Assembly (NCBI GenBank): GCA_963575745.1
Contig: CAUYUJ010016697.1
Coordinates: 202,393-266,392 of the forward strand
From: Prorocentrum cordatum
Taxonomy: Eukaryota > Sar > Dinophyceae > Prorocentrales > Prorocentraceae
Direction: 5' to 3'
DNA: 64,000 nt
This document shows positions 18,524 to 55,070 of the stretch, piece after piece (positions within the stretch are counted from its first letter, which is position 1; every line of letters begins with the position of its first letter). The notes below the pieces were generated by a model. The model saw only the letters and a program-made list of their open reading frames with translations. It did not search any database and was not told where the DNA came from. Made by a program: the position numbers and the translations under genes.

Positions 18524-19477
18524 TTAGGTAGGTCGTAGCAGAGCGCACGCCACCTTAGCAGCAGCTCTCGTCAGGGCAGCGCAGGCAGCTAGTTCACAGC
18601 AGGTTACCGTGCTACCAGGAGGCAAGCTCATCGCCTCCTCGGCCACATCGTGCCAATGGAAGCTGTGCGAGCTGGTGCAGGAGGAAGAGGAGGAGGAGGA
18701 GGAGGAGGAGATGGGAAAATCAACCTGCACGCTGGAACCCCTACCTACAACGCCAATCTGAAGCCACCACCCACCTCCACATCCTTCATTACTGACACCC
18801 CCATCGAATGCACCACGGAGAGCAGTCTTACGAGTACTGAGGAACTTATCATATGCAAACCAGCGAGTAATAGTTTGGCCACCTCTGGCCTCCCACGACA
18901 ATTTATCCGCACGCTCATTACCCTCACGAAAGAAATGCTTATACAGATTCTGTCCCGATGCAGGTGAGGTCAGTCCCCATCCAGACAGCATCGATACCGT
19001 ATTTTGTAGTGTTCCCACCAGTCGTACATACTGCTTGTTGCGAATCTGCCACTCACCACACATCCAGTTTACAACAGTCTTACTATCTCCCAAGATCTCC
19101 ATCCCAAGACGCTCAATATTCTCACACCTCCACTCCGTTTCATTCTCAAAATTAGCGGCAATACGTTTGCTCATCCTCTCATTCATCTCACTCTCCTCCT
19201 CCTCCTCTGCCTTCACATGTCTCACACCAGGCGGCCTGGGTAGAACAAACAAGTCGAACAAGTGTTGCATACCAATCACAGTCAGCAAATGCTTGCAGTA
19301 TTTCTCACGGGACCCAGCGGAACTGTCGAATGAGAGGTACCACTCACAACCAAAGAGATCGCACAAGCACCAGTCCCACGCAGTATGTCCACGGGGGCGG
19401 CCGCCTATGTTCATGCGTGTCAGCTGCTTCCTATCTTTTACAGGCATTGCTAGAATACATGTGTCACGATGTTCCGT
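18524..19477 (-). CDS. LINE A ORF2, C-terminal part: permuted RNase H
   Basis: About 317 residues in frame with the upstream RT segment across TAG at 19478-19480. RNase H motifs appear in the order ILGDSKTVVNWMCGEW (D70-like), FFREGNERADKL (D134-like), GAFDGGVSNEG (D10-like), then CCELAACAAL (E48-like). In ordinary RNase HI the D10 and E48 strands come first, so the fold looks circularly permuted. A poly-serine run (about 18695-18730) lies between the last two motifs. It ends in TAA at 18524. The likely role is removal of RNA from the RNA/DNA hybrid during reverse transcription. Assignment to RNase H rests on motif pattern; the permutation is inference from motif order. Confidence 0.8.
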   Translation of the reverse strand, partial: TEHRDTCILAMPVKDRKQLTRMNIGGRPRGHTAWDWCLCDLFGCEWYLSFDSSAGSREKYCKHLLTVIGMQHLFDLFVLPRPPGVRHVKAEEEEESEMNERMSKRIAANFENETEWRCENIERLGMEILGDSKTVVNWMCGEWQIRNKQYVRLVGTLQNTVSMLSGWGLTSPASGQNLYKHFFREGNERADKLSWEARGGQTITRWFAYDKFLSTRKTALRGAFDGGVSNEGCGGGWWLQIGVVGRGSSVQVDFPISSSSSSSSSSCTSSHSFHWHDVAEEAMSLPPGSTVTCCELAACAALTRAAAKVACALLRPT

Positions 19478-20950
19478 CTACTTCCCCCTTCCATGTAACA
19501 TGGCCAGCCTAGATATCATCCATTCACGTGACATGTCCGACTCCTCAGGTATGGCAGGCTGATCATCTGGTGTACGCCGGCGACAGCCACTCGACATCTG
19601 GGATATCTGAGATACATGATATGTTTGAGAAGTCGCCGCCGCCGCCATCGCCCGAGTTTTCCTCTGACGCCGATTTGGTACCGTCTCTCCCTCCTCCTCC
19701 TCTGTGTGTGTTGTGTATCTCCTCATACGAATACTTGCAGCAACTGAGACATCCTTAGCCCAATCCCAACAACGAAATATCCATATCTGCACCGCACTTC
19801 GGAATCCAAGTCCAGCAAAACTCTGTCGTCCCGCTTTGTATCGCCTACGTTGAAACTCAGACCAGCCTTCAGTTCTCCGCTTGCGTATACCTGACATTAT
19901 AGCTAGACATCTGCCTTCAAAATAGTGAACAGCAGCAATGGTAGAATAGTCGGGCGTTCTGCCCTCACAGTTGAATAATAATGCAGCAATCACTTTAGCT
20001 TGATAGCGAGTAAATCTTTCAGCCAAGTCAATCCCAGAACAGCGGTAATACGCGATTTCCCCAAAGAACATCCTCTGGGCTTTCTGGAGCATGGCCTCTG
20101 AGTCCGAGTGGTCCTTCCAGGTCTCCTCCAGAGTGGCTCCCAGGATCTCAAACGCTTGAACACGCGGTAGGACCACTTCTCGGGTCCCAAGAGCGGCGTC
20201 ACTAGACGGCACCAGCACACGGATATCCTGCTCAGGGGACGGCGGGATGCCAGGCGGCGCACCAAAGTAAATATACATCAAAGATTTCGGCTTCCAGGTC
20301 ATTCCTGCATTCATCAGGGGGATACTCATGTCACGCACCATCAACTCAAGGTCAGTGCGGGTCTTCGCATACAACAAAAGATTATCTGCCCAGAAACTGT
20401 GGGTCATACGCTCACCATTGAACATGCGCTCATCATTTTCCAATTTGATGCCGTACTGCGTTTCTTGCCTCCATCTGTCGATAACATCTCTCCAGAGTAC
20501 AATAGAAACTGCCAGAAAAATCATAGGTCCCTCTACTCCTCCCGTTCGAATAGATTTGTCCCAATAGACCGCTGACGATGCCTCGATGCCCTCGAAGCTG
20601 GCCACGCACTGATTATCCATCATGGGTTCAATCAACGCCACAATGAGATCAGCAGGTATGTCAAGAGCACGAAGACAGCGCATGGCGAGGCACGGAGTAA
20701 CATTATCGAAAGCTTGTAAGATATCAAGATTGGCAAGCCACAAACTGTCTCCTTTGCCCCAGACAGCGGAGTGCTGGCTGAGCCTCTTGGCAACGCTGGT
20801 GATTTCCGATGTTTTGCGTCCCGATCTGAATCCGTACAGGCATACATAGTGTCGGTGCTCCTCAATCCTCTTCTCAATCAACATCACAATACATGTCATG
20901 TACCATTTCATAAGACACGACTGTAGACATAGCACACGTGTATCTGTCAA
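19478..20950 (-). CDS. LINE A ORF2, reverse transcriptase part
   Basis: This segment holds the core RT motifs: NLDILQAFDNVTP (motif A with catalytic Asp), SIRTGGVEGPMIF (motif B) and SFWADNLLLYA (motif C). Motif C is normally F/Y-A-D-D but here reads W-A-D-N. It then runs into the linker before RNase H. It continues the upstream endonuclease/RT segment after a frame change between about 20900 and 20950, judged by alignment with LINE C around the MP-x-F/L...CMQ-like region. It ends at a TAG (19478-19480) with homology continuing in the same frame beyond. Confidence 0.85.
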   Translation of the reverse strand: MTDTRVLCLQSCLMKWYMTCIVMLIEKRIEEHRHYVCLYGFRSGRKTSEITSVAKRLSQHSAVWGKGDSLWLANLDILQAFDNVTPCLAMRCLRALDIPADLIVALIEPMMDNQCVASFEGIEASSAVYWDKSIRTGGVEGPMIFLAVSIVLWRDVIDRWRQETQYGIKLENDERMFNGERMTHSFWADNLLLYAKTRTDLELMVRDMSIPLMNAGMTWKPKSLMYIYFGAPPGIPPSPEQDIRVLVPSSDAALGTREVVLPRVQAFEILGATLEETWKDHSDSEAMLQKAQRMFFGEIAYYRCSGIDLAERFTRYQAKVIAALLFNCEGRTPDYSTIAAVHYFEGRCLAIMSGIRKRRTEGWSEFQRRRYKAGRQSFAGLGFRSAVQIWIFRCWDWAKDVSVAASIRMRRYTTHTEEEEGETVPNRRQRKTRAMAAAATSQTYHVSQISQMSSGCRRRTPDDQPAIPEESDMSREWMISRLAMLHGRGK

Positions 20951-22682
20951 ATGTTGGCATGAGTGTGGCAGCTAGTTGACGCCAACTGTCGGGACAACAT
21001 AACCTTCTGGAATACACACCTTGGAAGCTCACCAGAACACGTCGCACAGATGCCCACGAGAGCTGTTTCAACATCGTGACAGTCACGTTGTCGGGACCTG
21101 GGGCCTTTCCCGTGGACAGCTTCGCCCTCGCCCGCAGCAGGAGCGACATCGAGAACACCTCTGAGGATCCGCTTCCCGAACATAGACCACGCAGCGACTG
21201 AAGCTCACGCAGGGTCACCTCTCTGGCCTCGGGGTCCTCCACCTTAGACTTCATGTGCCCCAATATCTCGTCCCCCCACTCCTCGCGGTTCTGAGACTCC
21301 ATCCCGTTGGCAAGGATCAACGTCTCCGTCTTGGCCCTCCTCCTCCTCCTCGTGTTCATTTCCGTCCTCCACCTCTGTACTCTTGCCTCTAGCCTCCTTC
21401 TTTCTCTCCTCACAATCTTTGAGCACCGTTTAGCCTCCTCTCTATCCCCCCGACGAAGAGCTTCACGTTTACTTGCCTGGGCGGCCCAGTGGATCTCGGA
21501 TTTCTTTGGCACATTATTCCTGGGATTGATATCTTTCTGGGGGGTCTCCTCGGCGGCCTTTATGAGGTCAGGTCCCAGCGTATCCAACATCTCCTGTCGA
21601 TCCTCTGGGTCAGCATTTTCCTGGCACAGAGCACGGTAACGACTGCCCCGATCGTCCATGTTCTTCGCAAACTCCAGCTGTGACACCGGTTGCAAGTGGA
21701 TGAATTTTCGAGCAGGCTGGGTCCGTCTCTTCGCAGACGGTGCACAAGACAAGCGAACAACTATGCAGGCGTGGTCAGACAGCGCACGCTCGTATCTGCT
21801 GCAAGGGTGCTCCGTCCAGGCGTGGCCGACTTCCGAAGGCAGCATCCAGCCAACGGTGAGCTCCTGCCTGTGTAAACGACGGCTGACACCAACATAGTCG
21901 AGCACCTTCTCCACCCCCGTACCTGATTTGAAAGTAACCCTCCTCTGCCCGAATGTGTTCTCCATCCTGATGCCCCAGAGCCCGCAGAAGTCCAGTAGGG
22001 CCCTCCTCATCGATTGCAACCTAGACGCCCGTCGAATTTCGAAGCCCGAGACAAGCCTATGAGGTCTGGCTTTGCGTGCACCACGTTTTGTTTGAGTCAT
22101 ATACGGGTTGCCGTCATCCGCTCCCTCCTCCATCCCAGTATCAATCTCCGTAGACTCCCCAGCAATCCCAGACGCCTCCAGAAGCCCTGATCCAGTAACT
22201 CTAAAGCCGTTGACCTCCGAATCTGGCTCGAGTTCGACGTTAGCATCTGTCAAGAAGACCAGGTCCTGCGGCTGCTTCGGGAACTTAGACCTATGTGTGC
22301 GAAGCACTTGGGATATATCAAACAATATCTGCTCATACACATCATGCTCATACTGTTCTTCCGTAAGGGCATTGATACTCTCATGTGGCATATATGCAAC
22401 AATAACCGTAACACTAGAATAACTACAAATGACAAAACCTTTGCCACGATATGTGGCTCTGAGCGAGTCTCTCCAAGACTTAGACATAATCACCGCAGCC
22501 TTCCGACAAGTACTCCGAAAAATTGTGTAACCTCGCATGCTGAGATCACGAACTGAAAGGAACTGACACTCGCACAACCCCGCGAGTCCCACATCTAAAC
22601 GACGTAGTGAATTAATTATGTCATGGCCGTTCTCTGCACCTGCCCGACGCACATTCCATGACGCAATGGTGTCGTGGCACCT
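20874..22682 (-). CDS. LINE A ORF2, endonuclease and start of RT
   Basis: From TAG at 22683-22685 the frame reads on into IASWNVRRAGAENG (start of an EEP-type endonuclease), then LCECQ with the glutamate, FLTDANVEL, LDYVGVSRR and LSDHACIVV. These are the usual APE-like landmarks. A basic linker follows (EAKRCSKIVRRERRRLEA), then the first RT segment, STGKAPGPDNVTVTML. Real coding ends near 20945, where the frame shifts; the last ~25 residues of the open frame are not homologous to the other LINEs. This domain would nick the satellite hairpin to prime reverse transcription. Confidence 0.85.
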   Translation of the reverse strand, partial: RCHDTIASWNVRRAGAENGHDIINSLRRLDVGLAGLCECQFLSVRDLSMRGYTIFRSTCRKAAVIMSKSWRDSLRATYRGKGFVICSYSSVTVIVAYMPHESINALTEEQYEHDVYEQILFDISQVLRTHRSKFPKQPQDLVFLTDANVELEPDSEVNGFRVTGSGLLEASGIAGESTEIDTGMEEGADDGNPYMTQTKRGARKARPHRLVSGFEIRRASRLQSMRRALLDFCGLWGIRMENTFGQRRVTFKSGTGVEKVLDYVGVSRRLHRQELTVGWMLPSEVGHAWTEHPCSRYERALSDHACIVVRLSCAPSAKRRTQPARKFIHLQPVSQLEFAKNMDDRGSRYRALCQENADPEDRQEMLDTLGPDLIKAAEETPQKDINPRNNVPKKSEIHWAAQASKREALRRGDREEAKRCSKIVRRERRRLEARVQRWRTEMNTRRRRRAKTETLILANGMESQNREEWGDEILGHMKSKVEDPEAREVTLRELQSLRGLCSGSGSSEVFSMSLLLRARAKLSTGKAPGPDNVTVTMLKQLSWASVRRVLVSFQGVYSRRLCCPDSWRQLAATLMPTFDRYTCAMSTVVSYEMVHDMYCDVD

Positions 22683-24248
22683 CTAGTTCGTACTGGAAAT
22701 CCTCGCTCGCAACTCATCAATGTTGATCCCTGGCTCAAGCTGATTCATTGCACGAGTGATCTCCCAGCCATTCTGCAGAGAGAACTTGGCCACAATCTTC
22801 CCTGGAGGTGGTAAGTGGTCACTGGAGCCCCACATGAACGTAATCGGTGGTCCCGTCTCAGCCCTGAGATTCGAATGATGCTTCTTGAAACTCTTGAACT
22901 TGGCCTGAAAGATCCCAGCGGCATCCAGATGGGGCTTCTTCCAGGGGGGGGCCTCCACGTGGACCTTGAGGGCCCTGGGAGCGTGCTGGAGTTTGTTGTC
23001 GGCGATCGCGGCAACGAGTCGACGACGAAGATCCCACAGCTGGTCACTGGTAACCCCATTCTGGAAATAGAGCCGAGCACGCGAATACCCCCACGCCTCT
23101 CTACCTGTGTTGAACCTCTTGGATTGGTTCAGGTCCAGAAACTCCTTCACACCACTGAACCATTCTCCAGCCAGGACCTCATTCAGCAGTGAATTCAACG
23201 CCTGCTGTGATAACATCTCCTCCTGACGCTTCTCTGCATCCCTCCAGTCCGTCACCCATCCCTTGAGCTCGACGAACGATGGGGTGAAATTCTGCACTGA
23301 CTGCCGAGTTTCCGCCGAGGACGCTGTCGTAGAGGTGCCTGCTCTGGGGGCCCCACCTGCAGGAGCCTGCTGGAGCTGGATTATCTGGAGCCTCTGATCC
23401 TCAACCTTCTTAGTAATAGCATCTATGTCCGTCATCGCCTGCTGTACATTTTTCTCCACCGAATCAACACGAGCATTGAGCTGGGTGCCGAGATCCGTGA
23501 TGCTTCGATGTGTTGATTGGAAGCCCTCCGTCATCTTACCTCCCAGAGATGCAACAAGCGTCGTGATCTTGTCCATCCCCTTTGTCATGGCCTCCTCGAG
23601 GCCTTCAACCGTCTGAATTTTGACCCGTTTTCCCTCTGGGACCTCCTCCTCCTTGGCTCCTGGAACGGGCATATCAGTGGCGTCCATAGCGAAAACCTCG
23701 GGGACCGCAGCAGCTGATGAGGCAGCCATCTTGCCGTCTGAGATATTACAAGGGATATTCCACTTCGCACAGAACGATCGATCTTCTCGAGTACGTTTGA
23801 GATGTGCACTCAACTGATGAAAGTTATATGGGGCAACAGGATGGTGAGGTAAAGTGGGAGAGAGATCAGGTGGCCCAGATGGTATGTCGACTAGAGAATC
23901 CTTATCGTCGTGTCGAGCTCTACCAACCTGTCTGGCAAGATACTCCCACTCCCAATGTCCGAAGTTGGCTCCCCAGCGGTCCAAATCGATCGATTGACTC
24001 TGGCTCGTCCCGTCCAGCTCGACGCGGCAAAATGCCGCAAACAAGTGCAGGCGGCCTGCTTGCCTCGGGAAGCAAACAAATGCCGCAAACAAGTGCAGGC
24101 AGCCGAAGTCGCCGAAGTGGCCCGATCGCCACGCGCCCCCCCGCGCGGCGGGCCAGGGGCAGGCTGCCTGACTGCACGATGCAGCTCGAGTGAGCCCCCC
24201 GACGGGACAAGGCCGAGGGAGAGCGGGAGGTAAACTCCGCTTCCTCAA
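22683..24248 (-). CDS. LINE A ORF1
   Basis: The 521-codon open frame ends in TAG at 22683. The first convincing ATG is at 23729 (MAASSAAAVPEV), giving about 348 residues. However, the segment just upstream (LKRTRED... KWNIP) resembles LINE B upstream of its own ATG, so translation may begin further up. Visible parts: a coiled-coil-like stretch (LEEAMTKGMDKITTLVASLG onward), a Gly/Ala linker, the family signature VELKGWVTDW and an APPWKKPHLDA segment. These signatures are shared with LINE B and C ORF1. An RNA-binding role is inferred from LINE biology; no zinc knuckle is visible. Confidence 0.8.
   Translation of the reverse strand: MRKRSLPPALPRPCPVGGLTRAASCSQAACPWPAARGGAWRSGHFGDFGCLHLFAAFVCFPRQAGRLHLFAAFCRVELDGTSQSQSIDLDRWGANFGHWEWEYLARQVGRARHDDKDSLVDIPSGPPDLSPTLPHHPVAPYNFHQLSAHLKRTREDRSFCAKWNIPCNISDGKMAASSAAAVPEVFAMDATDMPVPGAKEEEVPEGKRVKIQTVEGLEEAMTKGMDKITTLVASLGGKMTEGFQSTHRSITDLGTQLNARVDSVEKNVQQAMTDIDAITKKVEDQRLQIIQLQQAPAGGAPRAGTSTTASSAETRQSVQNFTPSFVELKGWVTDWRDAEKRQEEMLSQQALNSLLNEVLAGEWFSGVKEFLDLNQSKRFNTGREAWGYSRARLYFQNGVTSDQLWDLRRRLVAAIADNKLQHAPRALKVHVEAPPWKKPHLDAAGIFQAKFKSFKKHHSNLRAETGPPITFMWGSSDHLPPPGKIVAKFSLQNGWEITRAMNQLEPGINIDELRARISSTN
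24028..24115. repeat. Direct repeat in LINE A 5' region
   Basis: The segment ATGCCGCAAACAAGTGCAGG occurs at about 24031 and again at about 24080, with a variable spacer. It lies in the presumed 5' UTR, where tandem promoter units are common in LINEs; function is not shown. Confidence 0.8.
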
Positions 24249-25261
24249 CCTTGGTTACCGCCGGGGGACTCGTAGAGCTTCCTGACATCTCAAGATGACT
24301 CGAATAATACGAATAATTCGGCAAACCTAGCTCGAGTGTCAGACCGAGTTCACACCTCTGCATGCGACAGGTGGACGCGTCTGATGTCTGCGAATCGACT
24401 CCTGTGATCACCAGCCCAACAGCCCCCCCCCTACAGCCCGAGTTAAGTGCAGGAAACCGACAGCGTCTGTCAGGATGACTCGAACAATACGAATATGTTC
24501 GCAGACCTCGTTCGGGCAGCAGACAGAGTTCGAAGCTCTGGATTCGAAAGGCGGACGCGCCTGATGTCTCCGAATCGATTGCTGTGATTACCAGCCCTGC
24601 AGCTGCCCTACAGCCCGAGTTAAGTGCAGAGAATCACGCATCTCTCAAGATAACTAAAACAATACGAATAGTTTTTGCGATTCTCAGCAGACCGAGTTCA
24701 GAGCTCTGGAGTCAACAGACAAGGGCCACATATAATTCTGAATCAGATTATGTACGTATCAGCTCTGTACTGTTCTTTAGCTCGACTTAAGTGCAGAAAA
24801 CCCAGAGTGTATCTCAAGATAACTCGAATAATACGAACAGGTTTGCGAACCTAGCTCGGCTAGCAGACCGATTTCAGACCTCTGGGTTCAACAGGCGAAC
24901 GCGTCTAATTAATCTGAATCGATTGGCTGTGCTTAACAGCTCTGTACCTGTCCTCCAGCTCGAGTTATCTTGAGAACCCGTCACCGCGTGACACGCTGAC
25001 CCGAAACGGGCGATCCCGCCGCAGTGCTTTTTGGCAGTAAAAGGTACCCGATCGAGCTGAGATCAAGATGGCGAGCTCAAATAAGATCGAATATCATAGG
25101 AAAAAATACTAGAGCTAACGAATGATTGAATTTTGAGAACCGAATTTTCAACTAACCAAAAGTCATCAAAATGTCCGTCGAGATTTTTCTTCCCAACTAG
25201 CTCTCCAGCGCCCCTGAATAACGGGAAAGCTTTTCTGGAGCGCTGCGGAAGCGCTGCCAGA
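24245..25261 (+). repeat. HOR unit 12 (right part, resumed after LINE A)
   Basis: It opens with TCAACCTTGGTTACCGCC, the right side of the hairpin. Monomers follow with boxes near 24292, 24471, 24646 and 24815, then the tail. It ends in GCTGCGGAAGCGCTGCCAGA, a GC-rich end not seen in other tails. Confidence 0.85.
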
Positions 25262-31582: not shown

Positions 31583-34500
31583 TCAATCACACAACTTATC
31601 GCTAAAATAGGCCTGCAAAACCCGTGGGAGTGCTGCAATAACGCACTCTGCAGCGGAGAGTTCCGCATCCGTCACCGTGGACCCGTCTTGGAGAGCGAAA
31701 GAGCAAACGTAAACGTCCTTGAAGATAATCTGTGGGGATTCACAGAAGGAAGAGGTGGGCGATAGATGGGAGAATCGAGAACGCAGTCCAATCTGAATCC
31801 AAGCTCCACTTCCTGCTCCCAGGCTGCACACACCACCATCAAAGCCCGCTTTGATGAGGCAAGGTTCATAGCATGACTGTTCGTATGGCTGCAACTGGTA
31901 CTGTTCGTTCGTGTATTGGTGGCCCTCGCGGGCCTGGTGGGTAAGGAGGTCGGCTTTCTCGTTCCATTCCCGAAACTCATGCTTGAGAAGATCGCGTCCT
32001 GCTTCAGCAGGTCTGACACCATACATACAACACATTCCTGCCAAAGAATTAATCATATTATCAACACGTGTCTGGTATAAGTGATTATCGGCCTTCCAGA
32101 GGCCGCAAAGCCAGCAAATGATAAGACGAGAATCTCCTGTGATCTCCAACGGCACGCCTCCTGAAGTCACGTCCCAACATGTGCTCTTCATATTGTGGAT
32201 AGCTAATCTCTTACTGAATCGCAGGCGTGCAGCGGGAGAATCGTCATCTGTAACAACATACTCCTCATTTCGTTCAGCCAGCAAGACGGGGGAGTTACCA
32301 TCATGGATACCTTTGCATTTCTTCCGGAAAAGCTTGAGCATAGAGGGTGTACAATGATGAGCTGCAAACTGCATGAAGGCATGAAGGCCACCTTGGAATA
32401 CTTCCCACCACCGTGGGCCGAAGAACTCATGAAAAGGTGTCTGCCAACAACGTTGTCCGATCGCTTGCCCTCCTGACCTCCAGCGTTTCATAACTCCACA
32501 TTCCCTCCACTTGCCGAAAGCCCGAAGGACTTCTCCCTCAAGTGTGCGCAGCGTGTCATAACTTATTCCAAAGGCAATCAAACACATGCGTGCATCACTC
32601 CATGCTCTATGCTCGTCCGTCATGTCCTCTCCCTGATACAACCTCTGCGCATATGCCGAGACGCCCTTTGCCAGCAGCCACTGAGCTCGGAGAAATCTCT
32701 GGACCAAGCTGTGGTACCCAGCCTCTGCGAACCTCGATCTGGCATCGCTGTATCTTCTCTCGTTCCATGTAGCATGGGATTCGTCTGGTTCTCGGCGGCA
32801 TCGAAGCATGAAGCATAAACACTTGCCCTCAAACGCGTGCAATGCATGGAGGCTATCCTTGTCGGCCGTGCAGCCATCCGCACCGAAAAGGGCAATACTC
32901 TGAACCTTTTGCTGGTACCGTAGGAACTTATCCTTCAGAGGCGTGCGTTTGTTCCGAAAATATCCTGCCTGGGAATAAAATGTCCGACGAGCCGCCTCAA
33001 TCCTAGAGTCCACGTCAAGGTGCGAGGAGTACTTATAATCAGAGAACAACTGGACGCCTAGAACCGTCATCTCAGTAACACGCCTGAACCGCATTACGTC
33101 ATTCAGGAAGGGTACAAGCAAGCCGGCTGAAGATAGGATCTGCCCCTCTGCATCTCTCGCAGCGTCGGCTCCGAAGACCATGTAAAGCAAGCTTGAGGGT
33201 TTCCAGCGCATGCCGAAATCTTGGAGTCTAACAGTAAGGTCGTGAATCATGTGTGCCAATTCTTCCCTGCTTCGTGCCAAGATGTAGCAATTATCTGCCC
33301 ATACGAAGTGATTGACGACCGACGTGTAGGACGATTTGCCAGACTCCATGGGGTCCCCAGTTTTAAAACACACTTGATAGCCTATGTTCTGTCTATCCCA
33401 TTGTCGGAAGGTTTCCTGCCACATCGCAGCAATAATAAGATTGAAACCTAGGGGTCCCTCGGCTCCGCCCGTTCTAATACATCTATCCCATCTCACACCC
33501 TCCACCTCGATACTTTCATGGCAAACCGTCCCCACACTATCGCATAGTGGATCAAGAAATGCATATTGAAGATGATAAGGTACATGCGCGTGCTGTAAAC
33601 CCCGTCTAACATTGGCTACCGTGCAATGGTCGAAGGCTTGTAGGATATCTGCATTGGCCAGATGTGCTGTTTCCCCCTTTCCCCATGTAGAAGCATGCTG
33701 GCCGATGTGTTTCAAACTCGCCGTGATCTCGTTCGTGGTGCGATTAGATTGGAAGCCGTAAAGACCGAGAGGGCGAAAGAGACCGTTTCGCTCGACATGT
33801 TGTTCCACCAAGATAACAATACATGTGCTGTACCATCGTGCAATAGCGTTCTGCATACATAGAAGCCTACCGTCCCTAAGATCCGTGATGCCAGGAAGCT
33901 TGGGCATAAAGGAGATGAGGATATCACGCCATGAGGAGGGGTACGGTGTGCACATGTGTAGCATATCGTCGAACAGGCGTCGGATGTTGCGCAATACCGT
34001 CCAAGGGAGACACTTTAACACCTCACACGGTACTCGATCTGGCCCTGTGGCTCGTTGTGTACGGAGGGGCGCCCGCCCACGTCCGAGTAACGCCATAGTG
34101 ATGGTCGAATACATGCTGCTACAAAGCTCCTCCCTCGCCTTCTCCTTGATCTCCTCCATCATACTAGCGTTCTCCTCCCGCATCTGATCCGATGAAAGCT
34201 TATTTCTGCAGAAACTGTCGAGCTCCTTCCTCCAAACCTCCCTGTCCTCCGTCTCCTGGCCCTCCACCACCAAGTGTTTAATATGATGACGAGTCTTTCG
34301 ACGATTGAGGGGACACTTCCAGGCTGCAACATCTCTGCGATATCGACGGCGATGTAGATTAATCTCACTCCTGAAACGTTTCTTTTCCTCTGGAGTCGTG
34401 TCTGACGGTAGTTCCCGCCATCTCTCCAAAAGACGAGTCAACTCGGTCGGCCTCACAGGTGGCCTCTGCTTGCCACTCTGCGCCGTGGTAAAGTCCACGT

Positions 34501-35497
34501 CAGGAGCAGCAACAAAAGACTGAATGAGCGTGCTAGGCAAGCTGGCTGGCTCCATCTCGAGAGAACGTGCGGGAATCCCACGAAACACAACATCTCCCAA
34601 GCTCCGATCCACCCTCCTCCTGGCATTGAACTCATCGCCCCATGTCACGCATCGATATCCTACCAAAGAGGGCGCCGGCGGCTCCACCCGCCCCCTGTCG
34701 TCACGTCGCACAATCACACGGCCAGGCGATGCAAACTGCCCAGTTAGAAGTGCATGATCACTTAATCGACTCCTATTCCTCCTTCCTCCTCTTGCATAAC
34801 ACCAAGAAACTTCACACTCAGAGCACTCCCAGCGGCTGGGCACCAAGATGTAATCGAGCACCTTCTGAATTCGTCCAAAGCTACGTTGCTCGCCCCACGC
34901 TTCCCAAGTAGGACGCCTATCTGCAGAAAAGGTATTGGCCGCCTTAAACATGTGGGTCTGCATGAACCCCAGTAGCATCTCCATCATCCTCCTCCTCCTG
35001 TTGATACGCTCCCTCTCCTCCGTACCACATGCCAAGGTCCTGACCTCCTTCCTCAAGCCCTCTCCCGTGGCAAGATACAATTCCCCATTACATTCTAACT
35101 CACATAGTGGCGGTAGCTCAACATTCCCGTCAAGCAAACAAACAAAGCTGGCCTGGCTATACCTGTGTCTGAGGCTTCTGAAAGTGGCAGACACCCGCTC
35201 AAGCGTGAGTTCATACTCCGCTTCGCAATCTTCTCGATGAGAATCGGGCAGGTAGAGAGAGCAGACAACCAAGGGAGAGATGGAAGTACCGAACACACCA
35301 ATGGCGAATCTAGAGAAAGTAGTAACGAATTCCCTGGACGTCGAGGCCCAACTTCGATCGAAGAGGAGCCCCGCCTTCCTGCAGGCACTATGCTTGATCT
35401 GCCATCCGAGACGGGCGGCATCTGCATGAATTATATTCTGGGCCTCCTGAAGCGCGAACATGGTTGAGCACCTCCACGCCTCTGAAGTTGTTCTCAC
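31583..35497 (-). CDS. LINE B ORF2: EEP endonuclease, RT, permuted RNase H
   Basis: 1304 codons, ending in TGA. Order: an EEP-type endonuclease (FALQEAQ near residue 15, LLDGNVELPP near 118, LDYILVPSRW and LSDHALL near 250); a basic linker; an RT with ATGPDRVPCEVL, ADILQAFDHCTVAN (motif A, about residue 620), RTGGAEGPLGF (motif B) and HFVWADNCYIL (motif C, about residue 730, W-A-D-N instead of F-A-D-D); then a C-terminal RNase H with ITGDSRLIICWLCG, FREWNEKADLLTHQ, KAGFDGGVCS and VTDAELSAAE, in permuted order. The conserved start (CWNLDKAGE, about 35516) lies in the frame that continues ORF1 across TGA at 35556-35558. The switch to this ORF's frame occurs around 35465-35500. This is the best preserved ORF2 here. 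Confidence 0.93.
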   Translation of the reverse strand: MRTTSEAWRCSTMFALQEAQNIIHADAARLGWQIKHSACRKAGLLFDRSWASTSREFVTTFSRFAIGVFGTSISPLVVCSLYLPDSHREDCEAEYELTLERVSATFRSLRHRYSQASFVCLLDGNVELPPLCELECNGELYLATGEGLRKEVRTLACGTEERERINRRRRMMEMLLGFMQTHMFKAANTFSADRRPTWEAWGEQRSFGRIQKVLDYILVPSRWECSECEVSWCYARGGRRNRSRLSDHALLTGQFASPGRVIVRRDDRGRVEPPAPSLVGYRCVTWGDEFNARRRVDRSLGDVVFRGIPARSLEMEPASLPSTLIQSFVAAPDVDFTTAQSGKQRPPVRPTELTRLLERWRELPSDTTPEEKKRFRSEINLHRRRYRRDVAAWKCPLNRRKTRHHIKHLVVEGQETEDREVWRKELDSFCRNKLSSDQMREENASMMEEIKEKAREELCSSMYSTITMALLGRGRAPLRTQRATGPDRVPCEVLKCLPWTVLRNIRRLFDDMLHMCTPYPSSWRDILISFMPKLPGITDLRDGRLLCMQNAIARWYSTCIVILVEQHVERNGLFRPLGLYGFQSNRTTNEITASLKHIGQHASTWGKGETAHLANADILQAFDHCTVANVRRGLQHAHVPYHLQYAFLDPLCDSVGTVCHESIEVEGVRWDRCIRTGGAEGPLGFNLIIAAMWQETFRQWDRQNIGYQVCFKTGDPMESGKSSYTSVVNHFVWADNCYILARSREELAHMIHDLTVRLQDFGMRWKPSSLLYMVFGADAARDAEGQILSSAGLLVPFLNDVMRFRRVTEMTVLGVQLFSDYKYSSHLDVDSRIEAARRTFYSQAGYFRNKRTPLKDKFLRYQQKVQSIALFGADGCTADKDSLHALHAFEGKCLCFMLRCRREPDESHATWNERRYSDARSRFAEAGYHSLVQRFLRAQWLLAKGVSAYAQRLYQGEDMTDEHRAWSDARMCLIAFGISYDTLRTLEGEVLRAFGKWRECGVMKRWRSGGQAIGQRCWQTPFHEFFGPRWWEVFQGGLHAFMQFAAHHCTPSMLKLFRKKCKGIHDGNSPVLLAERNEEYVVTDDDSPAARLRFSKRLAIHNMKSTCWDVTSGGVPLEITGDSRLIICWLCGLWKADNHLYQTRVDNMINSLAGMCCMYGVRPAEAGRDLLKHEFREWNEKADLLTHQAREGHQYTNEQYQLQPYEQSCYEPCLIKAGFDGGVCSLGAGSGAWIQIGLRSRFSHLSPTSSFCESPQIIFKDVYVCSFALQDGSTVTDAELSAAECVIAALPRVLQAYFSDKLCD

Positions 35498-35555
35498 CAG
35501 CCTTGTCGAGGTTCCAGCATCCCAACTTGATCCCCGACAGCCGGTGCCGATTCGG

Positions 35556-36926
35556 TCACACCTTGCGGTTGACCTCGACCTCGAAGTCCGTCGCTGTGAT
35601 CGTTAGATTTGGGAACTTCACCTGAAGTTGGCCCCACTGCGTCTCATGGATCGTCCACGCCTGGGCTGCTCCGAATTCAGCGATACAGATCGGGCGGAGG
35701 AGTCGGTCGCCCTGAGCCTTGACCCACATGTTCGATTTCGGGGGGCCAACCTCTCCCCTCACCTCCAGGACCAAGCTGTGGCGCTGGCACACGTTACGCC
35801 AGGCCCCGCAGAAGCGACCAACTGCACGAACATGGTCGCGCTTCCAGGGAGCTGATTCGATATTGAAACGTAATTGGGTCGGGTCGATGACCTGCGTCAT
35901 GCCTGCGATGAGCACGCTGGGATCTGGAATAGTCGTCCCCTCTGGCAAGGGGGCTCGCTGCGCAGTGGGAGTCACAATGATCCTGAGAAGCTTCTGGAAA
36001 CGATATAACACTTCTCGATCAGTGAATGGAAGAAACTTGATGCGACAACTGCCGAACATGTAGCGACCCGCATTGATACGCTCTGTCCCCTCCTTGCTGA
36101 GAAAGGCCTGGTCATCTGAGGCAATCACTTTGGATATATTGTCCACGAGTATCACGGTGTCGTCAGAAGTCAACATTTGAGCACAACGATTCTGATGATT
36201 GGCCCAATCCGTAACCCACCCCTTGACCTCGATATATGTTGGAGAGAATTGGCTCCTACCCCCGCCTCCTCCACCGCCCCCGTCAGCGGGGCCACTCCCA
36301 GCACTGAAGGTAGAGACCGCACTCCCATTCTGAACCGTTTTCAATGTTTTCTCGAGTTCGTCCATACGTTTATCCGTCTCGTCCATACGTTTAGTGTGTT
36401 CTGCTAAAACTCCGTCCATCCTCTTGATGTCTGTCTTTGTGGCCTCCACAGTCTCACGGATATCGTCACCTACGTCTTCCTGTTTGAACATTCCCTCAAT
36501 CATCATACGCTGGAAGGGATCAGTGAATTGTGCAAGCGTCTGGGTCCTGCGCGCCTGGACATCAGGACCTCGCTGTCTCTTAGTACCCGCAGTAGCAGCA
36601 GCTGCTTCCACGGAGCTCGACATAATTCCTACGTCGCCTCTAAGGAGATCTTCGGGGATATTCCAACGATTTCGAAAGCCCTGTTCCTCTCTGCGTCGTT
36701 TAAGTAGTTGAGCTGAAGCAACCCTGAGAACTGAATCGAAGCGATACCCTTCTGTACGAATAAGGGGGACCGTCGGGCTGATGAGCCTGTCGTCGTCAAG
36801 ATCTAATGAAGTCTGCCTCTGAAGCCACTGCTCCCTTGTCTCAAGCCAATTGCCGAGACCCCACTGCTCCAGAAGCCTAGCCTGGTCCTCAGGCTCGTCC
36901 CAAGACGTGGCTGGAAATTCCCAGAA
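35556..36926 (-). CDS. LINE B ORF1
   Basis: Open for about 456 codons, ending in TGA (followed by C). The first ATG of note is at 36623, giving 355 residues. The upstream part (TSWDEPEDQARLL..., WNIPEDLLRGD) is homologous to the LINE C N-terminus, so it is probably translated. Parts: an N-terminal W-rich region; DPFQRMMIEGMF; a coiled-coil-like stretch (TKTDIKRMDGVLAEHTKRMD); a poly-Gly linker; the family signature YIEVKGWVTDW; and SAPWKRDHVRA near the end. It presumably binds element RNA. ORF1 and the start of ORF2 are in one frame, separated only by the TGA. Confidence 0.85.
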   Translation of the reverse strand, partial: FWEFPATSWDEPEDQARLLEQWGLGNWLETREQWLQRQTSLDLDDDRLISPTVPLIRTEGYRFDSVLRVASAQLLKRRREEQGFRNRWNIPEDLLRGDVGIMSSSVEAAAATAGTKRQRGPDVQARRTQTLAQFTDPFQRMMIEGMFKQEDVGDDIRETVEATKTDIKRMDGVLAEHTKRMDETDKRMDELEKTLKTVQNGSAVSTFSAGSGPADGGGGGGGGRSQFSPTYIEVKGWVTDWANHQNRCAQMLTSDDTVILVDNISKVIASDDQAFLSKEGTERINAGRYMFGSCRIKFLPFTDREVLYRFQKLLRIIVTPTAQRAPLPEGTTIPDPSVLIAGMTQVIDPTQLRFNIESAPWKRDHVRAVGRFCGAWRNVCQRHSLVLEVRGEVGPPKSNMWVKAQGDRLLRPICIAEFGAAQAWTIHETQWGQLQVKFPNLTITATDFEVEVNRKV

Positions 36927-37101: not shown

Positions 37102-37361
37102 GTTTTGTTTTGCGTCTTTGCTGGGACCGTCTTGGCCACTGAGGCCAGGTCCAACAAAGTCTCAGGCAAAACAGAGCCTCTTATTCATCACGCAAGCAGT
37201 CAGCTCTTATACCACACAGCGAAGCTGAAGGAATAAAGAGAATCACATGCCGCAATGACACAATCAAACGCAAAGAACACACAGATAATCGAGGAAGTCA
37301 GTGAGCAGCGAAGCTGCAGGAATATACAAGACACAGAAAAGAAGAAACAATGTGTGTCAAA
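37102..37361 (-). other. LINE C 3' UTR and tail
   Basis: It contains an inverted segment GGCCACTGAGGCC (37134-37146) and ends in the CGCAAAACAAAA tail. The element D 3' UTR has the same layout (short GC hairpin, then a TTATTCA block). Confidence 0.6.
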
Positions 37362-40300
37362 TCACTGCGAATGATCAAAGAAGGTCTGCACAACCTGTGG
37401 GAGCACCTCGCATATGCGCTCCGCCGCCGATAGCTCCGTATCTGTAACAGTGGCGCTCGGTGGTAGACACCAAGCCGCAAGATACACATCCTTGAAAATG
37501 ATGTCGGTCCGCGAGAGATATACTTGTTTCGCAGACCAATCTGTATCCATGCACCACAGGCACTTCCGCGGCTACAAACTCCCCCATCAAAGCCGGCTTT
37601 GATAAGGCAAGGAATATAACACTGAGATTCAAAGTCGTTGAGGTAAACGAAATCGGCGTACACATGGCCCTGACGGGCCTGATGGGTCAGTAAGTCTGCT
37701 TTCTGGTTCCATTCCCGAAACGAATGAGAGAAGAAGTCACGGCCGGCCTCTGGAGGCCTCACCAAGTAAGTTTCCTGCATTTCGTCCAACTTATTAATCA
37801 GAGTATCCACCCTTTTCTGATATACCTGAGCTAATACTTTCCATTTCCCGCAGAGCCAGTTAATAACAAGCAGTGAGTCCCCTTGGATGTCCAGTGGTAT
37901 CCCATCTGTATCGAGGTCCCACTGTGTACAACGCATATTATGCAACGCAATACGTTTGCTGAGGCGATCCCTATATGCTGGTGTATCCTCCCGATCCTGA
38001 CCGATATGAACCCCTCCATCCTCATCCAAGTTCAAGAATACAGGCACCCCTGAGGACGCCAACCCTTTACACTTCTTTTGGAAGTACTTCAACATAGTAC
38101 TAGAACAAACATTAGCAGCGAAATCCATGAAATGCTCAAAACTTCCAGCAAAGAACTCCCACCAGGATAAACCGTAAAACGATTCCAATGAATAATACCA
38201 CGGACGGAGTCCGACGCTCTCCTGTCCCCCCCGATGCCTTTTCATAGAGCTGGCCTCCTTCCAGTTTCCCCAACATCTGAGAGCCTCACTTGAATCCGTC
38301 CTCATTCTATCCCACAGTCGGCCAAACGCCAGACATGAGAAACGAGAATCTCTCCAAGCTCTCATCGAGTTCGCCTCCAGCTCCCCCCGATCTGTGATCA
38401 GCCTGTGTGCAAAGTCCTGGATGTCAATAGCCCACATCCAATGCACTCTGAGAAACTTCTGTACAATGCCCACGAAGTGAGCATCATGAAATTTTTGTCT
38501 CGCACGTTCATACCTCCTCGTATTCCATTCCTGGTAACTTTCCCCCTCCCTCCGTATACAGCGAGACATTACAGACAGGCACTTGCCCTCAAAGATATGA
38601 AGGGCGCTCAATGAACTTGAATCGACCGTGCATCCTTCCGCCGCGTAGAGCACAATACTCTGAACTCTCTGAGCATACCTCTCATATTTATCTTTCAACG
38701 GGATGGCCGTGGAGCGGAAGAAGGTCGCCTGCCCCCAGAAGGCCCTGCGAGCACAGTCAATACGAGCGTCCAAATCATGATGTTCATTCACATGTAGTTC
38801 AGAACAAATATAAGCCCCCAGCACCTCCATCTCCGTCGTCCTTCTAAATCGATACACTCCAGACGCCTCCGACCCCACCGAGAGAGCAAGATCAGCAGTG
38901 TGAAGTATTTCCCCTTCCACATCTCGCGGCGGCTCGACCCCGAACACCATATACAATAGGCTGGATTCCTTCCATCTCATTCCATAATCATGTAACTGTG
39001 TAGTTAGACCGTGTAACATGCGTGTGAGTTCCTCTCGACTCCGAGCCAATACATAACAGTTGTCAGCCCAAAGGAAATGATTAATAATCGAAACACAGCT
39101 AGTCGAGCCAGTCACATACTCAATACGATAACCTAGTCCTAGTACGTCCCATTCTCGAATCGTGGAGCCCCACATAGCAGCAACGATGAGATTGAAGGCC
39201 AACGGTCCCTCGGGCCCTCCCGTCCGAATACATTTGTCCCACCTAACCTCCACCACCTCAATCCCATCATAATAGACAGTGCCTACACATTCGCACAAGG
39301 GGTCAAGTAGAGCATACTGTAGGTAAAGGGGTACATCCGCATGATCCAACCCGCGCCTGACATTGGCCACCGTGCAGTGATCGAACGCCTGAAGGACATC
39401 AGCGTTCGCCAAGTGTGCCGTTTCCCCTTTTCCCCATTGTGCAGCATGTTGACCTATGTGTTTGATGCTAGCCGTGATTTCGTGTGTACGACGGTGTTCC
39501 TGGAAACCATACAACCCAATATGACGAAACACTCCTTTTCTTTCAATATGACCCTCAACCAAGAGAACAACACAGGAACTGAACCATCTCGAAACAGCAT
39601 TCTGCATACACAGCAAACGTCCGTCTTTTAACTTAGTGATCCCTGGAGTTTTTGGCATAAAAGAGACGAGAATCTCACGCCACGACTGAGGATACGGAAT
39701 CGTGAGCTTGATGATTTTATCGAACAACTTCTGGATCGCTCTGAGAGCACACCACGGCAAGCTCCTTATAATCTCGCACGGTATCCCGTCTGGCCCAGTA
39801 GCCCTCTGGGTCTTCAGCCGAGCTCGTGCTCTGAGAAGCAGCGCCATACTAATTCCCACAACTGATGTGGAACGTATCTCATGTACAGCCCTCATCCTGA
39901 TCTCCTCCATCATACTGTTGGTGGAATTGCGTATCTCTTCGGACGACACCTTGCAACGAACGAACTTGTCGAGCTCCTCCTTCCACTCCTCACGGTCCTC
40001 CGTCTCCCTCCCATCCACCACTAAATGTTTGATAGTATATCTGACCTTTCTTTTTGTTGGGGGACATCTGCACATAATCATATCACGTCGATAACCTCTG
40101 CGTAGACGATTAGCCTCATTCTTTAACCTCCTCAACCTCTCCACTTCCTCCTTCGGACACATCTTAACCTCCTCCTCCGCTCTTGTGAGCTGCACCGGCC
40201 TGGACGGCTCTCTCTGTCTTCTCGCACCCGTGGTGGAGTAGTCCACCGTCGGTGACAAGTACGCCTCCAGCATAGTACTCTCCAGACCCTGTGGACAGGT

Positions 40301-41314
40301 CACAGACGGACACCTTGAAAAGGCAGCACCGCCTAGATACGAATCCACATGCTGTCGAGCCTGATGCTCATCAGCCCAAGTCGAACACTTGTATCCGACC
40401 AGAGACGGCCTAGACTTCTGACCAGGCTGGGGGTCAGGGCGACGAACAATCACGTTCCCAGGGTCAGTGAAACTCGCCGTGATGATTGCGTGATCGGATA
40501 ATCTACTGAACTGCTTCTTCCCACCCCTCTTGAAACACCACTTCACCTCCAGATCCGAGAACTCCCAACGGTGAGGGACCATTAGGTAATCCAGGACCCT
40601 CTTCGAAGTCAGAAACTTGTTCTCCCCCCACGACTCCCAGGTATGCCTCCTAGTACAGAAAGTGTTGGCGGCCTTCAGTCCATGCGATTCCATGAACTCT
40701 AACAGCAGCTCCTTCAGCCTCCTCCTCCGACTCCTCCTTTCAATCTGCTGTGTACCGTCTCCTCCTCTCTCCCACCTTCTGTCCGTACGAGTACCTTCCT
40801 TTCCAGTAGCCTCATACTCCTCCCCATTATACGTAAATCTGCATCCAGGCGGAATCTCCACGTTTGCATCTAGCAGAACACAAAAGCTGGCCTGAGGAAA
40901 CTTAGTGCGGAGAACATTGCGAGCACGACCGATCTGCTCATATACCTCCGCAGCAATCTCAACACAATCCTCCACATGAGGGTCTGGCAAATACGCTGAC
41001 ACAATAATGAGTGGTGACTTCTCTGACCCAAAGACACCGATAACGAACCTCGTGAAACAAGTGAAAAACATGCGGACGGCAGCCGCCCAAGATCTGTCGA
41101 AGATGAGAGCTGCCTTACTACACGAACTAGTTTTGATGCGCCACCCCAAGCGTTCAAATTCCCCGTGCACTAGGTATTGAGTTACTTGACATGCAAAGAG
41201 CCCACCACATGCCCTCATATGATGGAGAATCTCAGCACATTTGAAATGAGCCTCCCCTGCTTTGTTCAGGTTCCAGCTCGCTAAGCGTATGCCTCGGACG
41301 AGGCGCCGCAAACG
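37362..41314 (-). CDS. LINE C ORF2: endonuclease (mutated), RT, permuted RNase H (frameshifted)
   Basis: The frame is open from the ORF1 stop (TGA 41315-41317, followed by C) through IRLASWNLNKAGE to about 37510. Landmarks: ACQVTQ where the glutamate should be, LLDANVEIPP, LDYLMVPHRW, LSDHAIITASF; RT motifs NADVLQAFDHCT, RTGGPEGPLAF and HFLWADNCYVL; then DIQGDSLLVINWLCG, FREWNQKADLLTHQ and KAGFDGGVCS. Just after AWIQIGLRNKYISR the homologous frame shifts by one, and the last motif (VTDTELSAAE) and the true TGA at 37362 lie in the new frame. Without a correction the protein would end at 37298 with an unrelated tail. Compared with LINE B it is about 66% of the way to full function at best. Confidence 0.9.
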
Positions 41315-42720
41315 TCACTGCTTACGATTCACTTCCTGAAGTATATCATTCATGGGAACCTTCAGCGCCGGATAAAAATAAACAATACGAGCCCATGCAT
41401 CAGCATGAAGAACCCAAGCCCCTGTGGTATTCGTATACGTCGCAAAACAGACGGGTCGGAAATTCGTAACAGCTTGAGTACAAATCTGACTTCTCGGTGG
41501 CCCCACCTCCCCACGGATCTCGATTTGAACATGAGCCGAGGTCATACTACGCCAAGTCCCACAGAAACGAGCAACCGCTTTCACATGATCACGCTTCCAG
41601 GGTGCACACTCCACTAACGTACGAATCTTTCTGGGATCGATTGGCGTGTCCATATCATGAGTGAGAACATCGGCATCTGGATACGTATAACCTGGGGGCG
41701 GGGCAATGCGGTCGGCGGGTTCCTTACAGACCATATCCATCCATTTCTTTATTCTCCAAAGAGTGTCCCGTGGTGTCCCTTCTTTGAAACCGACCTTCAC
41801 ACTGCCGTACATATATCTTCCTCCGTTTAAACGTTCAGTTTTATCTTTATCGTAAGCATTCCTTTCCTCCCCCTGAAGTGTCCCAATCATATTAGATATT
41901 AACTGTGCCGCATCTGCCCAGGGTATCATTTGATTTCCCCGATTTACTTGATTCGACCAATCCGTAACCCACCCTTTCAGCTCGAGATAAGTTGGTGTGA
42001 ACTGGCTCGATCGCTCCTGTTGCACGCGAGGGAACGAACCTCCACCACCACCAGAGGAGCCACCAGGGCCCACACTAGTCGAAACCGAAGCTGCAGGAGA
42101 TCCAGCCAAAATTTGCTTAACCTGTTTCTCCAAAATCTCTGTCCGTGCATCTGATTTGTCCATTCTCTCCGTATGCAACTTGAGTGTGTCATCCACTCTT
42201 TTGATGTCCGTCTTCGTCGATTGAACAACATGGATGAGATCCTCATGGGCATCCTCCGTTTCCAAACATGCTTCATCATCATCTGTTTGAATGGATCCTT
42301 CTCCTTTTCTAACATCACTTTCCTCTCCTCCTCAATCTCAGTTCCACGTGCACGTTTGGATCGAGTCTCACCATCCCCAGTCATCGCGGCATCCGCCGCT
42401 GCTGCAACATGAGTCATATCTTCAAGAATATTACCGTTCAATCCGTATTTATCTAACCAGCTCCTATCGTCCTCACGTTGACGTTTGTTTGATGCTGCCT
42501 CCAGTGCCTGCAGATCTTTCTGATCCCACGGCTGGTATTCCTCAAGGTAATCAAAGTTGACTCTCTCGTCCTGGTAGTCTTCTGTGGGTATGTCCAAATT
42601 CCTTTGACGCCGAAACCACTCCTCAGTACTTTCACCCCAATGCTCGAGTCCTATCTCTCTCCTCAATGCCAGCTGAGCCTCAGGACTGTCGTACGACGTG
42701 ATTGTCAACAACGGTCAACA
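41315..42720 (-). CDS. LINE C ORF1 (frame change near 42270)
   Basis: The N-terminal part (42275-42720: TSYDSPEAQ, WFRRQRNLDIP, DPFKQMMMKH) and the C-terminal part (41315-42265: QSTKTDIKRVDD, poly-Gly, YLELKGWVTDW, CAPWKRDHVKA) lie in different frames. LINE B shows these are one continuous protein (DPFQRMM... then TKTDIKRMD), so a single-base change near 42270 breaks it. No ATG is present near the N-terminal end, only a stop at about 42721. The end is TGA, in frame with ORF2. Role as for LINE B ORF1. Confidence 0.85.
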
Positions 42721-54701: not shown

Positions 54702-55070
54702 CTACAGCATCGCTCGCTCCTCTGCGAGATCGATCTTCATCATGGCCGCAACCTCGTTCCGCAGCTCTTCTGTGGACAATTTCTTGTCATCACGGACAGA
54801 GCGGCGCCCCGCGTCGTACTCCGGCTTGAGAAGCTTCCCGAGCTGGCGGCGCGAGGCGCCAGCGATCGTATGGCACTGCAAGGAGAGGTCGCTCTCCTCC
54901 AGCTTCCCGTCCGCGAACGCGAGACGTCGATCCCGCGGGGCGAGCGGAAGCGGCGGCAGCCACTCCCGCCCGTCCCGCCCGTCCAAGCCCAGCTGCCGGC
55001 CCACCTCCTCCGCCGCGTCGAACTGCACGCTGCCAACCCGGGCGAGCACGGCCCCCTCCACTTCCTCAGA
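54702..55070 (-). CDS. Helitron: Rep segment between frame change and TAG
   Basis: About 120 residues that continue the HUH Rep segment in a different frame (EEVEGAVLARVGSVQFDAAE to DLAEERAML). The composition here is protein-like, while the older frame becomes Arg/Ser-rich nonsense after about 55066. It ends in TAG (54702-54704), and the same frame then continues as the middle Rep segment. A single-base insertion or deletion near 55060-55070 (GTCTGAGGAAGTGG on the minus strand) explains the shift. Confidence 0.7.
   Translation of the reverse strand, partial: SEEVEGAVLARVGSVQFDAAEEVGRQLGLDGRDGREWLPPLPLAPRDRRLAFADGKLEESDLSLQCHTIAGASRRQLGKLLKPEYDAGRRSVRDDKKLSTEELRNEVAAMMKIDLAEERAML

Follow-up and report, generated by a model that had tools for sequence, protein, structure and literature searches.

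RNase H is a model fold. Engineered circular permutants of Escherichia coli RNase HI have been used in folding studies, and the fold tolerates new chain ends. Natural RNases HI of the archaea-like type, represented by the profile families RVT_3, RNAseHI_Thmprot and RnaseHI_Halo and by the structures 3u3g, 4h8k, 3aly and 4e19, run in the order beta1-beta3-alphaA-beta4-alphaE. According to the accounts available in part, an arginine instead of a histidine separates the archaea-like RNases H from the His type and defines the class D-E-D-R-D (PMC4640811, PMC5348765). An enzyme of this class is found at the end of ORF2 in the L1 elements of plants (Ta11) and oomycetes, where it is described with the D-E-D-R-D residues and with a CCHC motif upstream (PMC5348765, available portion). 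In the oomycete Utopia elements, an archaea-like RNase H is located upstream of the reverse transcriptase (RT) (PMC4640811, portion seen); there, too, a non-LTR element gained an enzyme of this class independently, in an unusual place. LINEs are abundant in dinoflagellates; those of Symbiodinium possess two ORFs and a methyltransferase in ORF1, and the part of the description at hand mentions no RNase H domain in their ORF2 (PMC5890265).

The window analyzed here (the whole 64-kb stretch of DNA) contains three LINEs, denoted A, B and C, of which LINE B, with two ORFs like the Symbiodinium elements, encodes an RNase H-like domain at the end of ORF2. With archaea-like RNase HI the domain has in common the motif (G)DS..V....G.(W/Y) in beta4 and beyond, (F)DGG in beta1, a glutamate at the start of alphaA and, in alphaE, RExNxxAD, where Arg takes the place of the His found in the remaining RNases HI. 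In contrast to the ordinary enzymes, the beta4-alphaE half comes first and the beta1-beta3-alphaA half last, and the spacing is wider both from D10 to E48 and from D70 to D134. Both the enzyme class and its place match the plant and oomycete L1 elements, from which the LINE domain differs in being permuted. In Utopia the whole domain occupies another place in the protein, whereas in the LINE B family the domain itself is permuted and, unlike the E. coli permutants, it is natural. We consider it likely that this is a conserved, probably active, circularly permuted type I RNase H of the archaea-like class, with a chain that runs from beta4 to alphaA and a predicted activity that would remove template RNA during retrotransposition.

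That LINEs carry RNases H of this class, and where in the protein they do so, was already known; the chain order appears to be new. In the open-access literature, covered partly in excerpt, we came across no account of an RNase H that is permuted in nature. The word stem 'permut' does not occur in the review of the RNase H superfamily PMC3985635; the passages seen on circular permutation and the RNase H fold are general remarks or deal with other domains, and in the portions seen of the RNase H and retrotransposon literature 'permuted' refers to the thumb helices of RT or occurs in a cited title, which concerns Penelope-like elements whose domains are permuted.

Motif order in the three LINEs of the window

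In a six-frame scan of the 64 kb, each of the four motif patterns was found exactly three times, that is, once in each of LINEs A, B and C, and in the identical order. In LINE B, all four motifs (GDSRLIICW, 32111-32137; FREWNEKAD, 31949-31975; FDGG, 31832-31843; TDAELSA, 31652-31672) belong to the single frame of ORF2 (Table 1). The initial annotation had described the order D70, D134, D10, E48 at the C-terminus of this protein; the scan, the three LINEs and the database family described below all bear this out, and the motif coordinates given there lie close to the scanned positions.

Table 1. Features of the LINE B ORFs and of the corresponding domains of LINEs A and C (coordinates in the window)
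Feature	Position	Strand	Remarks
LINE B ORF1	35556-36926	minus	Pfam: weak matches only, all under cut-off
LINE B ORF2 (endonuclease-like region, reverse transcriptase, predicted permuted RNase H)	31583-35602	minus	single open frame, 1339 aa
Predicted permuted RNase H domain, LINE B ORF2	31586-32185	minus	ORF residues ~1140-1339 (~200 residues), final domain before stop; AF2 and alignment
beta4, LINE B	32135-32155	minus	AF2 secondary structure; followed by the D70-like Asp of GDS
D70-like Asp (GDS), LINE B	codon 32132-32134	minus	invariant in 16-sequence alignment
beta5 and alphaE, LINE B	31928-31987	minus	AF2; hhalign match to ordinary archaea-like RNase HI
Archaea-like class Arg, LINE B	codon 31970-31972	minus	inside FREWNEKAD
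D134-like Asp, LINE B	codon 31949-31951	minus	inside FREWNEKAD
Linker alphaE to beta1, LINE B	31871-31927	minus	19 residues, short strand and short helix; in place of the ordinary chain ends
beta1 and beta2, LINE B	31778-31870	minus	AF2; contains the D10-like Asp
D10-like Asp (FDGG), LINE B	codon 31838-31840	minus	in beta1
beta3, LINE B	31694-31729	minus	AF2
alphaA, LINE B	31604-31675	minus	AF2; carries the E48-like Glu
E48-like Glu, LINE B	codon 31661-31663	minus	25 residues from Glu to protein end
LINE C ORF2	37298-41314	minus	in frame: GDS 37856-37882, FREWNQKAD 37694-37720, FDGG 37580-37591
LINE C E48-like motif TDTELSA	37425-37445	minus	frame differs from the rest of ORF2
Predicted permuted RNase H domain, LINE A	18527-19165	minus	GDS 19064-19090, FREGNERAD 18905-18931, FDGG 18797-18808, TCCELAA 18584-18604

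The other two copies are damaged. The ORFs of LINE C span 37298-42714, and the position of its E48-like motif in another frame indicates that this copy is frameshifted. In LINE A (ORFs spanning 18524-24254), the remainder of ORF2 is broken across frames and the RNase H-like domain itself is open. Such damage could be taken to suggest that the unusual order arose in one copy only, through misassembly or rearrangement, but the order is identical in the three LINEs and in 22 of the 47 sequences of the family, which come from several sources, so that this explanation is already refuted and its probability is practically nil. In the LINE A domain (18524-19477), beta2 and beta3 are separated by a serine run, and the corresponding run in the database protein P0006 differs in length by one Ser.

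No ordinary D10/E48 pair was detected upstream: in the full-length ORF2s of LINEs B and C and of the relatives P0001, P0002 and P0003, the four patterns are absent outside the C-terminal domain. The sole match upstream in LINE B to a looser pattern (hydrophobic-DG-small) is ADGC at residue 908, which is not conserved. An upstream FDGG in P0009 is unaccompanied by an E48 motif, and the relatives have QGG or AGS at that place.

A family of proteins with the permuted order

The C-terminal part of LINE B ORF2 retrieved one close protein and residues 500-1330 retrieved two more (48% and 39% identity); an alignment of six C-termini, used as the query, yielded 41 further proteins of 80-311 aa, only lengths near that of the query being admitted. 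Together with LINEs A, B and C, these 44 relatives, among which six are labelled Pyramimonas sp. (EukProt) and one comes from MMETSP, make up a set of 47 sequences. Because the family patterns were derived from its own members, the evidence lies in the order of the motifs and not in the hit rate. In an unordered scan, all four motifs were detected in 22 of the 47 sequences; 21 have exactly the order D70-D134-D10-E48, and P0009 has the same order plus the extra upstream FDGG. The remaining 25 contain D70-D134-D10 (four sequences), D134-D10-E48 (five), D134-D10 (eight), D10-E48 (two), D70-D10-E48 (one), a single motif (four) or none (one). The same scan found a conflicting order, or the four motifs in the ordinary order, in none of the 47. 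For comparison, 81 ordinary archaea-like RNases H (80 loci and L001) were scanned with their own patterns: the four motifs were recovered in 43, all in the order D10-E48-D70-D134 (an additional DGG being present in three), and fewer motifs in the other 38.

The spacing of the motifs can be compared between the 22 permuted and the 43 ordinary sequences with all four. The D70-D134 distance is 57-61 residues in the former versus 50 in the latter, and D10-E48 is 42-72 versus a median of 41. From E48 to the C-terminus there are 16-27 residues in the permuted sequences, compared with 24 between E48 and D70 in the ordinary ones, and D134 and D10 are 31-38 residues apart in the 22 permuted sequences. 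The D-E-D-R-D catalytic set shows little or no variation across the alignments of 16, 18 and 26 relatives. In all 18 sequences of one alignment, the D, G and G of FDGG, a later G, and the V, T, E and A of VTxxExxA are invariant; some copies (P0005 and P0025) have lost a catalytic acid.

Thirteen members, P0027-P0029, P0032, P0033, P0035-P0037 and P0039-P0043, form a second subfamily with the identical motif order, most of them on contigs of ~10-36 kb; a lysine-rich stretch follows FDGG in most, and the E48 motif is TQAETTA in P0027, P0028 and P0037. The C-terminus of LINE A (18524-19477) is nearly identical to the JGI protein P0006, and its last part to the MMETSP transcript P0023; it also resembles EukProt fragments labelled Pyramimonas sp. 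(side group P0006, P0023, P0017, P0024, P0030, P0034 and P0038). This likeness could reflect an element common across algae, prey or contamination. Viral contigs and prokaryote genome contigs gave 23 and 81 pattern matches, respectively, none of which was confirmed as a relative, and these collections say little on absence.

Homology to archaea-like RNase HI

The beta4-alphaE half aligns with the 81 ordinary archaea-like RNases H with an hhalign probability of 97.8 (E=1e-12). Profile searches were run with 16 of the 23 complete sequences, P0001, P0006, P0007, P0008, P0014, P0022 and P0028 being omitted as similar to kept ones. In the natural order, nine of the 16 match Pfam RVT_3 at E<=1 (profile positions 62-121 in the members shown singly), and 12 of 16 match NCBIfam RNAseHI_Thmprot at E<=1 in natural and un-permuted order alike. 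The matches of the family profile to PDB profiles include the RNases H 3u3g, 3aly, 2ehg and 4e19, with a best E of 0.014 in the natural and 0.00067 in the ordinary order. The Arg of RExNxxAD is conserved in the family and corresponds to the fifth catalytic residue, and on these profile comparisons the beta4-alphaE half is clearly homologous to archaea-like RNase HI, the class Arg included.

For the beta1-alphaA half, the sequence comparisons are less uniform. Un-permuted models mostly score better, without dramatic gain: RVT_3 matches 10 of 16 members with a best E of 9.4e-06 (8.9e-05 in the natural order), and the best E for RNAseHI_Thmprot is 1.5e-08 versus 3.3e-07, but PRK07238 becomes slightly worse (1e-06 versus 7.6e-07). 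P0018 exceeds the curated RVT_3 cut-off of 21.6 bits in the natural order (22.8 bits) and reaches 26.0 bits when un-permuted, with the start of the match shifted seven profile positions earlier. Un-permuting extends the match leftwards, towards or into alphaA, in P0009, P0018 and P0020 (the largest extension, from profile position 72 to 37) but not in others. A match of P0012 to the unrelated Amidase_2 at E=0.00044 is a warning on E-values of that size.

In the global hhalign alignment of the un-permuted profile, FDGG, the Glu of alphaA, GDS and RExNxxAD are in register over 128 columns (E=6e-13); when the columns of the D10 half were shuffled, four of 300 trials reached this score. The local un-permuted hhalign score is no better than that of the shuffles (299 of 300 as high); it is insensitive to shuffling because the other half carries the score. 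A local profile alignment places FDGG..G in the D10 register as its best match (three of 200 shuffles as high), with E48 out of register, and in an end-free alignment neither FDGG nor E48 is in register (72 of 200 shuffles as high). The D10 half alone retrieved no RNase H from the PDB; its profile matched 21 entries for viral envelope proteins and a single designed protein, which we judge to be chance.

These results bear on the proposal that RNase H ancestry is confined to the beta4-alphaE half, the C-terminal half being a beta-hairpin/helix module of unrelated origin in which FDGG and VTxxEL resemble the RNase H motifs by chance. Such a module would have no significant match alone, would not lift the local un-permuted scores above the shuffles and would fail in the end-free alignment, as is the case. 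It would hardly be expected, though, that the only invariant acids of this half should be an Asp in a three-strand meander and a Glu near the start of the next long helix, as in RNase H, nor that FDGG..G should fall in the D10 register in the local and global alignments; moreover, half an RNase H would by itself be devoid of an active site. The stretch beta1-beta2 is also the best conserved among those compared between LINEs B and C, with 84% identity over 25 codons (dN ~0.10, dS ~2.5, the latter near saturation) versus 67% identity for RT. We regard the chance-likeness reading as improbable. The sequence support for an RNase H identity of the beta1-alphaA half is modest to weak, and the assignment draws mainly on the invariant D and E and the predicted topology, and also on spacing and on the conservation of beta1-beta2 between LINEs B and C.

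Predicted fold

An AlphaFold2 (AF2) model was built for positions 31586-32491 of LINE B (302 residues) with an alignment of 26 sequences; a single-sequence model was discarded (pLDDT 36). Mean pLDDT is 78 and pTM 0.69, the first ~100 of the 302 residues being of low confidence. In residues 111-300, the ten-residue blocks have pLDDT values of 83-98, save for a loop at 241-250 (60); by block means, 156 of the 302 residues are at pLDDT >=90, covering most of the domain. With strands and helices named here by their RNase H correspondence, the model comprises beta4 (113-119), two helices (122-128 and 137-157), beta5 (169-171), alphaE (178-188), the linker, beta1 (208-222), beta2 (225-238), beta3 (255-266) and alphaA (273-296), along with extra short strands (159-161 and 193-196) and an extra helix (202-207). 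Of the acids, D120 comes right after beta4, beta1 contains D218, and D181 and E277 both sit close to the beginning of their helices, alphaE and alphaA, respectively. The model thus supports, at the level of prediction, the claim of the initial annotation that the motifs make up one RNase H fold with new termini: the order of secondary structure elements is that of a circular permutant, with each acid at its RNase H place. With high confidence, the predicted topology is that of an RNase H opened between alphaA and beta4, its former termini being connected. A pTM of 0.69, reached although roughly one third of the model is of low confidence, makes it probable that a single domain comprises both halves. 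Ahead of beta4, the model has 112 residues, predicted to be mostly helical or disordered, and the idea may be entertained that a helix upstream of beta4 is a relic of the original alphaA.

A further alternative is a different alpha/beta fold in its natural order, such as that of the CinA C-terminal domain; we consider a fold of this kind very unlikely. In sequential fold searches, CinA was the top match with VIA, which we judge to reflect a common arrangement. Foldseek against the PDB produced no confident match, its top match, PelC, likewise being judged a common arrangement; the RNase H 3aly appeared at rank 41 (E 0.61, probability 0.75, 71 columns).

Probable activity and proposed mechanism and origin

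With respect to the archaea-like RNases H, the domain has the D-E-D-R-D residues and the profile homology of beta4-alphaE but not the ordinary chain order beta1-beta2-beta3-alphaA-beta4-alphaB..-beta5-alphaE; because its chain starts with beta4 and ends with alphaA, it is classified as a permuted variant and not as a plain member.

Since all five catalytic residues are conserved, the domain is probably active. An alternative is that the permuted fold is no longer, or not mainly, a nuclease and serves as a structural or nucleic acid-holding tether, like the retroviral connection domain. The permutation and the linkers could have accompanied such a change of role, P0005 and P0025 lack an acid, and non-LTR elements often depend on the RNase H of the host (PMC5348765, available portion). 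However, D, E, D, R and D are kept in nearly all aligned members, whereas in LTR elements with two RNases H the redundant original domain lost those residues, as far as the same account goes (PMC5348765), and we consider a tether role unlikely.

For an active permuted RNase H, the following scheme can be proposed. The permuted domain would hang from RT via its strand-4 side, with the old chain ends, alphaE and beta1, joined by the linker of ~20 residues, and beta1-beta3-alphaA would complete the active site of what is presumably a metal-dependent RNase H. In target-primed reverse transcription, the first cDNA strand would be freed of the LINE RNA by this enzyme, so that second strand synthesis could follow. 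Removal of the template RNA is the general role of RNase H in retrotransposition, for which many non-LTR elements use the host enzyme, according to the portion seen of PMC5348765. As a likely origin of the permutation, we propose that an archaea-like RNase H at the C-terminus, like the one in the L1 elements of plants and oomycetes, was duplicated in tandem and that the two outer halves were then lost.

We lean towards the view that this is the first natural and active circularly permuted RNase H, carried by an old and diverse clade of LINEs from aquatic protists, in which the chain ends moved from beta1/alphaE to beta4/alphaA, probably through duplication and outer-half loss. If so, a natural permutant has been kept by selection across a retrotransposon clade, and such a change is evolvable and not merely tolerable; protist genomes would allow its origin, through a duplication intermediate or a domain swap, to be tested directly. 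Permuted domains would then also be overlooked, or recognized in one half only, by ordinary sequential searches with profiles or structures, as with Pfam and Foldseek here, and LINEs annotated as devoid of RNase H may merit re-examination.

Other features of the elements

LINE B has the layout of a non-LTR retrotransposon, with an RT in ORF2 after an ORF1. The RVT_1 match in its ORF2 (E=3.4e-06, 27.3 bits) is slightly under the cut-off of 29.6 bits, that of LINE C is also just below, and among the relatives P0002 scores above it (33.2) and P0003 below (22). The Pfam scan of LINEs B and C yielded nothing above the cut-offs, only the sub-threshold RT and noise, and the full-length ORF2 profile matched nothing in the PDB at E<=0.1, RT included. 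At the N-terminus of ORF2, neither Pfam nor the PDB search with this profile gave a match to an APE-type endonuclease; the region contains the motifs ASWN, DANVE and LSDHA, which we take to be APE-like. In eight complete or partial ORF2 sequences, a scan for a CCHC-like pattern gave a single match, which lies in the frameshifted LINE C tail. ORF1 of LINE B has no clear Pfam family.

The usual catalytic motif of RT is (F/Y)xDD. In all six elements inspected, LINEs A, B and C and P0001, P0002 and P0003, the corresponding motif is WADN, in which the second Asp is always Asn (LINE B ORF2 residues 768-771; LINE C, 749-752; LINE A, within the ORF 19478-20971), and the pattern (F/Y/L/I)(A/V/M/I)DD does not occur in these six sequences.

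A scan of the window with the dinoflagellate spliced leader gave no match, which speaks neither for nor against a dinoflagellate. The window also contains a Helitron-like element (46843-59251, minus strand), with one ORF that combines a PIF1 helicase with a ubiquitin carboxyl-terminal hydrolase and another with Helitron_like_N and DUF6570. The three ORF1 proteins of the LINEs (35556-36926 in B, 41315-42331 in C and 22683-24254 in A) share the motif E(L/V)KGWVTDW.
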